From Myxococcales bacterium (GTDB taxonomy: Bacteria; Lernaellota; Lernaellaia; Lernaellales; Lernaellaceae): DNA of 40,623 nucleotides. The position numbers and the translations under genes were made by a program. Of the stretch, positions 14,157 through 21,728 are shown piece by piece (position 1 is the first letter of the stretch; each line of letters begins with the position of its first letter). Location of the stretch: contig JAAYVF010000053.1 of NCBI GenBank assembly GCA_012517325.1, positions 1-40,623 on the forward strand, given 5' to 3'. The notes beneath the pieces are model-generated. The model did not search any database. It saw nothing but the letters and a program-made list of their open reading frames with translations, and was not told the DNA's origin.

Positions 14157-17252
<3,096 letters not shown>

Positions 17253-17283: not shown

Positions 17284-19038
17284 ATGAAAAAAATGAAGCA
17301 CCGCCGCCACGCGGCCGTCTGGGCCGTCGCGGTATGGATCGCTTGCCTGCTGCCGGCCGGCTGGGCCGCCGCCGGCAATGAATATCCGACCGACAAAGCG
17401 CCGACCATCTACCTGGGAGCGCGTTACGACAACATCGGTTTCGTGGTCGTCACCGGCGATTTCAACGGCGACGGCCACACCGATTTGTTTTTCAGCGCTC
17501 CCGGCGACTGATACAAGAATCCGGCGTCCCGGGCGGACGTCCAGCGCGTTTACGGAGTCCTCGGCCCGCTTCCCAATTCCCTGGGAATCGTCGATCTGTC
17601 GGTCACCCCGACCGACGTGCAAGTGATCGGCCCGCCTTACTGCGGCGGGTTCGGCGGTTCGCTGGCCCTAGCCGATTTGAACGAGGACGGCTGCGACGAC
17701 CTGATCGTCGGCGATTTTCTTTCGCAACCGGCCACGCAAATCTGGGCCGGGGAAGTCGGCGTCCTGTACGGCCGCACCGATCCCCCGGCGAATTGGGTGG
17801 TGGATTGGCGGGTCGAATCGCCGCCGTTGCGCATTTACGAAGACGTTTATTATCTGCAACTGGGCGCCGCGCTCGGCGTCGGCGATTTCGACGGCGACGG
17901 CCATCCCGACCTGGCGATCGGCACCGATTCGTACCTGGATCCCGGCGCCATTTATCTGCTGCGCGGCCCCTTCCCCGCCCCGGCTTCGCCGGCCGTGCGC
18001 GACCTGGCGACCGAACCCGCCGAGTGGCTGCTGCCCACGCCGGGCGGCGCGATGGACGGCTTCGGCACGACATTCGCCCTGGCCGATCTGGACGGCGACG
18101 GCCGGGACGATCTGGCGGCCGGCGCCCCCGATCAAACCAATGACGACTTGCAAGGCGCGACGTACGTTTATTTCGGCCGCGCCTTGGCGGCGACGGCCGG
18201 CAACCTGAGCCCCGATGTCTCGATTCTTTCCGGCGATGCCGACCGTTTCGTTCGCCTCGGCGCGTCGCTGGCGCTCGGCGATTACACCGGCGACGGTCTG
18301 CCGGATTTGCTCGTCGCCGATCCCTTTTTCGTCCATGAAGAAAAACACACCGGCCGCCTGTTTCTGCTCGACGGCACCCGCCTGGAGCCGGGCGCTTCCT
18401 TCGCGCTGCCGCAAGGCGCCGCCGACTGGACGCTGACCGGCGTCGGCGATTGGTGGTACGTCTTCGACCGCTTTGCGGTCACCCATACCGTGGGAGCGGC
18501 CGCCGGGCCGACCCTGCTCGTCGGCGCGACCAAGGCGACCTGGGACGAAATGCGTTACACCGGAGTGGTGTTGCGCGTCGACCGCGACCGGGTAGCCGAT
18601 TTGGGACCGGACGTGTTGCTGGCGGACGTCGAACCCAACGCGATTTATTGCGGCGCCCGCGCTTACTTTTACCTGGGCAACTCCATCACGCCCGCCGATC
18701 TGACCGGCAACGGCATCCCCGACCTCGTGCTGGGCGCCTCGGGATCGCTGACCGGCGACGACCTGGGCGGCGTCGTGGCCGTCTATCCCGATCACTTGAA
18801 CGACGTCATTCCCGACGACGATGACGATGACGATGACGATGACGACGATGACGACGACAACGATAACGACAACGACGATAACGACAACAATGACAACGAC
18901 AATGACACCGCCCCGATCGATGACGATACCGCGCCGGAAACCGACGACGACTCGGCCCCGGCTCCCGGCGACGACGATTCCCCCGCCGGCGGGCCGAGTG
19001 ACGACGGCGATGACGACGAAGGCGGCTGCGGCTGTTAA
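17284..19038 (+). pseudogene. FG-GAP beta-propeller surface protein with in-frame TGA
   Basis: The frame encodes a secreted protein of about 585 codons with a signal peptide (ends AAA before GNEYP) and at least six FG-GAP/calcium-loop repeats of the type DFNGDGHTDL, DFDGDGHPDL, DLDGDGRDDL and DLTGNGIPDL. These form an integrin-alpha-like propeller. A C-terminal Asp/Asn linker ends GGCGC. One TGA at 17509-17511 interrupts the frame just after the first repeat (FSAPGD-stop-YKNPAS). Homology-like coding resumes at once in the same frame, and TGG (Trp) would fit. TGA is a normal stop for other genes here, so I read this as a nonsense mutation or base-call error. If real, only a 75-residue stub is made. 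The start is ATG 17284, 31 bp after the preceding gene. Confidence 0.75.
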
Positions 19039-19171: not shown

Positions 19172-21151
19172 ATGTCTTTTCGACACTGGTTAATATCACT
19201 GTTGGCCCTCGCGTTTTTACTCGCGGCGCTCGGCGCGGCGGGAGCCGGCACGCCGCTGTACGATCCGGCCGCGAAAATCCGCATCCAGCGCGGGGCTCAT
19301 GAATTGACGGCTTACCAGCAGGCGGAAACGGCGTTTTCGCCGTTGCGCCAGGCGGCCTTCCGCCACCGGATGGAACGCAAGGCGCCCAACCCGATCGAGA
19401 TCAAGCACAGCCTGATCGCCTTCGACGCCGAAGAAGGCCCCGGCACCATCGACACGCAAACCACGGTGACCCTGGCGGCGACCGAGGACGGCGTGACCAC
19501 CGGCGAGTTCGTCGTCACGGCGCTCGAAGATTTTTCGGTCACCGACAACGGAGGCATTCCGCTGACCGTCGAGGCGAACCCCTACTACGGCACCGTCGTC
19601 GTCACCTTCCCCGAAACGCTCGACGAGGGCGATGAACTGGTGCTCGTGTTTCACAACGCGGGAACGCCCGACTGCGAGCCGGACGACTTCTTCGGCATGG
19701 TCTTCTGCCGGGTTTCCGACGACATCGTCTTTTTCGCCGGCCTGGATTGGGTGCCGTCGAAGGCCGCTTACACCCTCGAGGATTACTACGGCCACCAGAC
19801 GACCGATCTGGACATCACCACGCCGCCGGACTACCTCGCGGTGTCCACTTCCGATCCGGCCGGGGTGGACGACGAGGGCGATCACCTGGTGCAGCATTTC
19901 GTCGGCCACTTCGACGAATCCTACGCCGGCTTCGCCTACGCCAAGTATGAAACCTTCACCCACGCGACTGCCGCCGGGCAACCGGTCACGACCTATCTGC
20001 ACACCGGCACGACCTCGTTCGGGCAGCCCTGGGCGGATACCGGCGCGGCGATCATCGATTATTTCGCCGGCATCTTTTCCCCCTACGTTTACAACAAGCA
20101 CGATCTGGTGCAGACGATCAACGAACTGGGCGGCGGCGTCGGGCCCCAATCGCTGAGTTTTTATTACGCCGACGCGCTGATCACCGACCCGGCTTATATG
20201 TTTTCCGAGAGCATCTTCTCGCACGAAATCGCCCACTCCTGGTGGGGCAACATGATCCGCTACGGCGACGAGGATTCGCCCTGGCTCAACGAGGGCATCG
20301 CCGAATATTCCTCGCGCCGCTACGGCTACCAGGTCTGGCCGTCCTACTACCAGGATTACCTCTACGAGTTCTACTTCAATTACTTCCGCTATGCGGTCGA
20401 CCCGTCGCAGGAAGTGCCGATGAGCAGCGATGCCATCTTCGCGGTCGATTCGATGATCTACCAGGCGCTGACCTACTGGAAAGGCGCCCACGTGCTGCGG
20501 ATGCTCGAATCCTGGCTCGGCGACGAGGACTTCCTCGCCGGCATGGCCGACTATGCGCAAACGTACACCTGGGAAAACAACGCGGAACTGACGACCGTAG
20601 ATAAGTACCGCGCCAAGCTCGAAGCCACCAGCGGCCTGGATCTGCAGGGCTTCTTCGACCAGTGGGTCTACGGCAAGGGTTACCCCGTCTACCGCTGGGC
20701 CGCCGAGTTCGGCCAGGACGGCGCGCAATATACCGCCCGCCTCCGCGTCGAGCAGATTCAGGAATCCGGCGCCTTTTTCGATCTGCCCGTCCAGGCGTCG
20801 CTCTGGATCGGCGAGGAAGACGAGCCGCGCACCGTCTCGCTGGAATTCACCGCCGGCGTCGCCGACCAGACCTTCACCTTCGACGCCGAGCCGCGCGGCG
20901 CGCGCGTCGACGGCGAGGCGCGCATCTGGGGCGACAAGATCGCCGCGCTGACCGGCGACGTGGACGCCAGCAACGAGGTCGACGGGCTCGATTTGATTTA
21001 CGTCGCCTGGTCGCAGGGCGGCCTGTTCAACGATTACGACCATTACAATTACCTGCCCGAGGCGGATTTCGACCGCGATTTCACGGTCGACCAAACCGAC
21101 CTGGACGCGCTGCACGCCAACTTCGGCAAGAGGGGAACGATCGATGAATAA
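19172..21151 (+). CDS. Secreted M1-family metallopeptidase with C-terminal dockerin
   Basis: This 659-residue protein has a signal peptide (about residues 1-25), an N-terminal beta domain and an M1 gluzincin catalytic domain. H351EIAH355 is followed after 18 residues by E374, and Y435 in TYWKG matches the catalytic tyrosine. The GxMEN motif that holds the substrate amino end is replaced by GGVGPQ (near 321-326), so aminopeptidase activity is doubtful. Residues ~595-659 form a dockerin with two calcium loops, GDVDASNEVDGLDL and ADFDRDFTVDQTDL. GGAGG at 19160-19164 supports the ATG. The stop overlaps the start of the next gene by 8 bp, and that gene encodes a cohesin-like lipoprotein. I infer that the peptidase is held at the surface by its neighbour. 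Confidence 0.88.
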   Translation: MSFRHWLISLLALAFLLAALGAAGAGTPLYDPAAKIRIQRGAHELTAYQQAETAFSPLRQAAFRHRMERKAPNPIEIKHSLIAFDAEEGPGTIDTQTTVTLAATEDGVTTGEFVVTALEDFSVTDNGGIPLTVEANPYYGTVVVTFPETLDEGDELVLVFHNAGTPDCEPDDFFGMVFCRVSDDIVFFAGLDWVPSKAAYTLEDYYGHQTTDLDITTPPDYLAVSTSDPAGVDDEGDHLVQHFVGHFDESYAGFAYAKYETFTHATAAGQPVTTYLHTGTTSFGQPWADTGAAIIDYFAGIFSPYVYNKHDLVQTINELGGGVGPQSLSFYYADALITDPAYMFSESIFSHEIAHSWWGNMIRYGDEDSPWLNEGIAEYSSRRYGYQVWPSYYQDYLYEFYFNYFRYAVDPSQEVPMSSDAIFAVDSMIYQALTYWKGAHVLRMLESWLGDEDFLAGMADYAQTYTWENNAELTTVDKYRAKLEATSGLDLQGFFDQWVYGKGYPVYRWAAEFGQDGAQYTARLRVEQIQESGAFFDLPVQASLWIGEEDEPRTVSLEFTAGVADQTFTFDAEPRGARVDGEARIWGDKIAALTGDVDASNEVDGLDLIYVAWSQGGLFNDYDHYNYLPEADFDRDFTVDQTDLDALHANFGKRGTIDE

Positions 21152-21728
21152 GCTGTTTCGACTGCTCGCTATCGCGTTGTTGCTGCTGGCGGCGGCGTCC
21201 GCCGGCTGCCAGAAAAGCGGCGATGACGACGACAATCAGAACAACGACGACGACAACACCCCGTTCCAGGCCAAGCAGATCACCTTCACCCCGGCCGGTT
21301 CCGCCCAGGCGGGCGACATCTGGCTGGAAATGGAAAACGCCGATCCGGCCCAAAACGCCTTCACCCTGCGACTGATGGGCAACGGCCTGACCGACGTTTA
21401 CGGCGTCGCCGGCCGGCTGACCTTCGATCGCGCGATCGGCGCGCTCAACTCCGCCGCGCCCAAGGATGCCTTGGGCTCCGGCGGCGCGACCGTCGCCACC
21501 GAGGCGGCCGCCAACGACGCCGGCGGCGTCTTCGGCTTCAGCCGCCAGGGCCTGGTCGCGGGCGTCGCCTTCGCCGAACCGGTCGTCATCGGCACGCTCG
21601 AATTCAACGCGCTCAAGGCCGGGAAAACGGACATCGCCTTCACCGAAAACAAATCGCGGGTGATGAATCCGGATCTCGAGGTCGTCGAGGTGGCGCACTG
21701 GCTCGGCGGAACGCTAACGGTGGAGTAA
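21144..21728 (+). CDS. Cohesin-like lipoprotein with Asp linker
   Basis: This 194-residue lipoprotein has lipobox SAGC (Cys22), a short Asp/Asn linker (about residues 27-40), and one domain of ~150 residues. The domain has the cohesin pattern: NGLTDVYGVAGRLTFD near its start, then VFGFSRQG, then IGTLEFNALKAGKTDIAF, and a final WLGGTLTVE strand. Cohesins bind dockerins through calcium-dependent helices on the partner. The ATG overlaps the stop of the dockerin-bearing M1 peptidase by 8 bp, so both are probably made in one coupled step. The likely role is to tether that peptidase, or other dockerin proteins of the cell, to the outer membrane. A strong terminator follows 21 bp downstream. Cohesin type and specificity cannot be told from sequence alone. 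Confidence 0.72.
   Translation: MNKLFRLLAIALLLLAAASAGCQKSGDDDDNQNNDDDNTPFQAKQITFTPAGSAQAGDIWLEMENADPAQNAFTLRLMGNGLTDVYGVAGRLTFDRAIGALNSAAPKDALGSGGATVATEAAANDAGGVFGFSRQGLVAGVAFAEPVVIGTLEFNALKAGKTDIAFTENKSRVMNPDLEVVEVAHWLGGTLTVE

Follow-up and report, generated by a model that had tools for sequence, protein, structure and literature searches.

The locus described here raises the question of whether a secreted peptidase can be kept at its own cell by the product of the gene that overlaps its stop codon. Cohesins and dockerins outside cellulosomes have long been known, while their partners and purposes are mostly obscure. The DNA analysed, a stretch of 40,623 nucleotides in full and hereafter the window, is assigned by kinship to the class FEN-1099, the proposed phylum Lernaellota/Podoxiota (PMC13248872). 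It encodes an M1-family metallopeptidase directly followed by a small lipoprotein. The initial annotation read the pair, from the letters of the sequence, as a two-gene module in which a dockerin at the end of the peptidase is held by a cohesin on the lipoprotein. We followed up this reading by family profiles, structure models and a survey of other genomes.

Gene pair and peptidase

Re-reading of the open reading frames confirmed the coordinates and motifs given for the pair (Table 1), including the overlap of the lipoprotein gene with the M1 stop, which is exactly 8 bp. In each of the five class genomes that carry the pair, the M1 and cohesin genes overlap by exactly this length, which suggests that their translation is coupled. 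The only site found by a terminator scan 3′ of the pair lies on the minus strand.

Table 1. Features of the M1-cohesin gene pair and of proteins with an acidic, Cys-containing end
Feature	Position	Strand	Length, conservation or support
M1-family metallopeptidase gene, secreted product with C-terminal dockerin	19172..21151	+	659 aa
GGGVGPQS in place of GAMEN	20129-20152	+	Invariant among aligned class orthologs
Zinc site HEIAH...NEGIAE (HExxH, then Glu) of the M1 domain	20222..20305	+	Kept in all orthologs; aligned with solved M1 enzymes
Dockerin: pair of calcium loop-helix units at the extreme C-terminus of the peptidase	20954..21148	+	PF00404 in the G006 ortholog; dockerin profile
Overlap of the M1 and cohesin genes, ATGAATAA	21144..21151	+	8 bp; equal length in 5/5 class genomes
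Single-cohesin lipoprotein gene	21144..21728	+	194 aa; AlphaFold model and PDB fold matches
Lipoprotein signal peptide ending with the lipobox Cys	21144..21209	+	Sequence; PS51257-like pattern matched
Asp/Asn-rich spacer from lipid anchor to cohesin	21210..21257	+	Sequence; low model confidence, consistent with a flexible linker
Cohesin domain	21270..21725	+	Family profile, AlphaFold model, fold matches
Proteins with Asp-rich run and terminal GCGC/CCGC-like end	Window 17617-19038; L003 1599-3449; L053, L054, L057	+ (window)	Sequence

The first gene product matches Peptidase_M1 (PF01433, 2.6e-22 in Pfam) and is 49–56% identical to its orthologs in genomes G004, G005 and G006, and 49% to that in L058. 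Both HEIAH and NEGIAE, the HExxH motif and the downstream Glu expected of the M1 family, are conserved among the orthologs. The GAMEN exopeptidase motif is absent in an alignment with class orthologs and solved M1 enzymes, and GGGVGPQS lines up with the segment that holds GAMEN in puromycin-sensitive aminopeptidase. Since this motif is replaced though the zinc site is intact, the enzyme may have a changed specificity and not work as a normal aminopeptidase. Its export signal is a plain signal peptide; the lipobox and the Asp linker are, as had been noted at the outset, confined to the cohesin protein, and the peptidase has neither.

Dockerin and cohesin domains

Searches with the single window proteins against Pfam, NCBIfam and PDB sequences were too weak, and the identity of both domains was settled by family profiles and fold. 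The last 65 residues of the M1 protein hold two calcium loops (DVDASNEVDGLD and DFDRDFTVDQTD), each with a helix after it, and the class orthologs retain their acidic positions. PF00404 scored the window dockerin on its own at 11–15 bits, below the cut-off of 22.9, but the G006 ortholog reached 24.2–26.3 bits and 12 of the 14 dockerins of the group matched (best 1.1e-9). A profile built from these 14 found 2y3n_B first among solved structures (4.3e-11), then 2b59_B (1.2e-7), with calmodulins ranked lower. Two loop-helix units are also present in the model of the dockerin from a sister pair (L220). The C-terminus is thus a dockerin, as first proposed, for which calcium binding is predicted from the loop residues. 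Many other PF00404 matches came from S8-like proteins with internal calcium loops or from other kinds of EF-hand, and were left out of the counts.

In the lipoprotein, the lipobox reads LLLLAAASAG followed by the Cys, and the acidic linker contains DDDDNQNNDDDN. The Pfam search with this single sequence gave no PF00963 match, whereas 13 of the 17 members of the aligned cohesin family did match (best 1.7e-10). The family profile retrieved cellulosomal cohesins from the PDB, mainly of type II, with ScaB cohesins at the top (3.4e-10). AlphaFold modelled the domain with confidence (pLDDT 90.1, pTM 0.82) as the nine-stranded jelly-roll of cohesins, and all 50 of the matches listed by Foldseek against the PDB were cohesins (best 5nrm_A, 2.5e-6). 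What had been a guess from sequence, that a cohesin is the only domain of the protein encoded at 21144-21728, is hence upheld by fold and family profile. Most PF00963 matches from other loci of the class proved to be different beta-sandwich repeats of secreted, Cys-rich proteins and were not counted.

Acidic runs occur in further proteins of the class. In several secreted ones a long stretch rich in Asp runs up to the last residues, which are GCGC, CCGC or the like (Table 1); this end looks like a C-terminal attachment signal, MYXO-CTERM-like but with no membrane helix. The window also encodes a lipoprotein of 1031 aa with an Asp linker (14157-17252, plus strand); its similarity to the LBP/BPI/CETP C-terminal domain, unusual in a bacterium, is sub-threshold (19.9 bits, cut-off 23).

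Co-inheritance within the class

Four of the seven class genomes have both the M1 and the cohesin gene and the other three have neither. With L058 as a fifth genome carrying both, the M1-dockerin and cohesin genes are adjacent in every one of the five genomes that have either. This joint presence and absence, together with the recurrence of the pair type described below, supports the proposed two-gene module. In the G006 copy (L004/L059) the reading frames of both genes are broken, possibly by assembly errors or by decay. L006, also near cysS, had been considered syntenic with the window and was dropped, as a locus with no dockerin.

One may alternatively regard the cohesin lipoprotein as a shared receptor for other dockerin proteins of the cell, e.g. 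the C106 protein (L014), or of other cells, with adjacency to the M1 gene being secondary. A C-terminal dockerin-like tail is indeed found on at least one more protein of the genome (L014, with L028 and L035 as orthologs), and cohesins of ANME archaea and their bacterial partners have been discussed as cell-cell adhesins (PMC10553843, PMC9012536). No cohesin partner adjoins any of these three loci, which make up the second secreted dockerin-tailed family of the class. Proteins of the L014 type are, however, also encoded in G002, a genome with no such cohesin, and it is to the M1 gene that the overlap and the joint presence and absence link the cohesin. We consider a shared receptor unlikely.

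Recurrence in other phyla

Profile searches, run on 386 genomes and on two other phyla, recovered lone cohesin lipoproteins of the same size. Outside the class FEN-1099, a dockerin-ending gene directly adjoins the lone cohesin lipoprotein in 9 of 19 evaluable cases; L183 and L184, at contig ends in G240, were omitted from the 19. In G240, six of nine evaluable cohesin lipoproteins are encoded directly beside a secreted dockerin-ending protein (L181, L185, L186, L220, L222, L251), and such a neighbour accompanies two of three in G091 (L187, L190) and the only one in G233 (L191). Single-cohesin lipoproteins directly beside dockerin-ending genes in two further phyla are a new observation, and cohesin-dockerin gene pairs are thereby found in three independent phylum-level lineages, the class of the window included. 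The probability of 9/19 adjacencies by chance is 8e-14 to 4e-11 if 1–2% of genes have a dockerin neighbour and 1e-7 at 5%, where the expectation, roughly estimated from dockerin counts, is below 1% per gene and the nine pairs are not all independent, G240 and G091 being of one genus. Two pairs in G240 had come to light around dockerins before a cohesin-first search of G240 recovered them both. The L251 dockerin, left out when the dockerin model was built, still scored 70 bits. In 846 kb of control loci there were no dockerins apart from those in the M1 genes themselves.

The cargo differs from pair to pair. It is a subtilase in L220, an M4/M36-like peptidase in L190, a PKD protein with weak InhA similarity in L181, an RCC1-repeat protein in L186, a VWA protein in L185 and a protein with beta-propeller-like repeats in L251. 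Judged from these sequences, the anchor is generic and the cargo variable. Two dockerin genes (L187 160-504 and L222 4448-4864) encode very short secreted proteins with little beyond a signal peptide and the dockerin; each overlaps the cohesin lipoprotein gene, and a large secreted protein is encoded after it, which in L222 is a DUF5060/CBM4_9 protein.

The remaining 10 of the 19 lone cohesin lipoproteins (L182, L188, L189, L192, L252 and L262-L266) have no dockerin neighbour, and this counts against a tether. Some of them are in conserved settings, L188 and L189 after a LysM-repeat protein and L264-L266 before a lytic-transglycosylase-like gene, which hints at a different role.

M1 peptidases with dockerin-like C-terminal tails were also found in one further bacterium (L065) and, with no adjoining cohesin, in Armatimonadota and Planctomycetota (L063, L073, L075, L079, L085, L095, L134). 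Most genomes with a dockerin-tailed M1 peptidase outside the class have no Pfam-detectable cohesin, while the genome of L065 has many; a dockerin-like tail therefore need not imply a cohesin partner. These tails favour another explanation, namely that the tail is only a calcium-stabilised end cap while the cohesin-fold protein has a different ligand, e.g. polysaccharide, the adjacency having some other cause. Cohesin-fold domains on secretins, with no dockerin involved as far as seen (L008), point the same way, as does the modest model of the L220 pair presented below. Such an end cap does not readily account for the adjacency seen with unrelated cargo in three lineages of phylum rank, for which the odds are about 1e-13, nor for the correlated divergence of cohesins and dockerins, and we find it very unlikely. 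The secretin-like proteins with a C-terminal cohesin are encoded at L008 1444-3357 (minus strand; 39 bits) and L180 3691-6232, and in L180 a second, separate cohesin protein is encoded after the secretin-like one.

Fit between putative partners

Among the eight pairs outside the class, cohesin and dockerin distances are correlated with r = 0.90, and only 22 of the 40,320 ways of permuting the partners reach this value; within G240 alone the correlation is 0.96 for five pairs (6 of 120 permutations as good). This correlated divergence could reflect co-evolution of cognates but also a joint duplication of the gene pairs.

The sister pair L220 was modelled with the in-frame stop read as Gln (code 6), its native leader thus serving as the tether. 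Both domains folded in this model, and the pTM of 0.60, given without PAE, is about that of two unrelated domains, so that docking is not confident, which may be held against a tether. The cohesin of this model has 2y3n_A as its nearest fold and the dockerin profile is nearest to 2y3n_B, two chains that bind each other in a single solved complex. For both halves, profiles and folds point to type II cohesin-dockerin partners, the 2y3n complex included, and from these similarities one may expect that the dockerin and the cohesin of the window bind each other, presumably in a calcium-dependent manner.

A probable tether for a single peptidase

The most plausible account of the locus, and one that we hold to be probable, is a cognate and monovalent tether outside any cellulosome, in which one cohesin anchor holds one dockerin cargo. 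It rests on the identity of the domains, their joint inheritance, the constant overlap, the frequent adjacency in other phyla, the variety of cargo, the correlated distances and the partnership of the two nearest structures. The M1 peptidase would be exported by an ordinary signal peptide, with its C-terminal dockerin folded around calcium. Translation of the second gene would probably be coupled to that of the first, and the two products exported separately. The second product would consist of a lipid-anchored Cys, a flexible Asp-rich spacer and the cohesin domain, into which the dockerin plugs, and the peptidase would be kept at the membrane of its own cell and not lost.

A membrane tether of the peptidase is in this way indicated, and display on the outer surface may follow from it. 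The lipoprotein might instead face inward and hold a periplasmic peptidase near the membrane. The sequence has no sign of export across the outer membrane, and the class is presumably diderm. In E. coli, the residue at position +2 after the lipoprotein Cys bears on sorting to the outer membrane, and the Gln found there argues for that membrane only if the E. coli rule applies. The long acidic spacers, on the other hand, would suit an outward face, as would the cargo of sister pairs (secreted peptidases, and the DUF5060/CBM4_9 enzyme encoded beside one of them). A periplasmic tether is therefore a real possibility, though the less probable orientation.

It may further be speculated that the membrane tether is one case of a widespread system, in which bacteria of several phyla tether single secreted proteins, each by its own co-encoded single-cohesin lipoprotein, and G240 runs at least six such pairs that are mutually selective (orthogonal). 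We put forward this generalisation tentatively, as somewhat short of an even chance.

If the tether is real, bacteria of little-known phyla have a simple natural means of fixing soluble enzymes to the cell, and compact binding pairs with cognates already assigned can be drawn from it. Since the partner can here be assigned from the genome, its function is directly testable.

Relation to known systems

The literature search surfaced no description of monovalent lipoprotein cohesins whose genes overlap those of their cargo. The parts are already known, and it is the cognate, overlapping, monovalent lipoprotein arrangement that, by this search, is new. The best profile and fold matches of both halves are type II cellulosome pairs (SdbA/CipA of C. 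thermocellum, 2b59, and the B. cellulosolvens complex 2y3n). As in those pairs, the cohesin is the receptor and the dockerin lies at the C-terminus of its partner; unlike them, the window pair has one cohesin on a lipoprotein in place of scaffoldin or SLH anchors, and a peptidase as cargo. No multi-cohesin scaffoldin was found in the same genome by Pfam, which is blind to the window cohesin too and gave one PF00963 match of 16 bits, below the cut-off. The pair is thus read as non-cellulosomal, in agreement with the setting outside cellulose degradation envisaged in the initial annotation.

The single-cohesin cell anchors of cellulosome bacteria, such as OlpA and OlpC of C. thermocellum and the single-cohesin proteins listed in PMC11557425, are alike in that one cell-attached cohesin is able to hold one dockerin enzyme. 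Anchors of that type are attached by SLH domains, the cell wall or a transmembrane helix and serve many enzymes, whereas here the anchor is a lipid and its gene overlaps that of the cargo.

Non-cellulosomal cohesins and dockerins are shared with Archaeoglobus, with ANME archaea and their SRB partners (PMC9012536, PMC10553843) and with Cloacimonadota, in which peptidases are dockerin-tagged (PMC8542988). Adjacent cohesin and dockerin domains are mentioned for Hot-Seep1 (PMC10553843), and it has been stated that the implications of cohesins and dockerins outside cellulosomes are not clear from their presence alone (PMC9012536). The systems in these three reports are adhesins or polyvalent scaffoldin-like proteins, in contrast to the monovalent lipoprotein cohesin described here.
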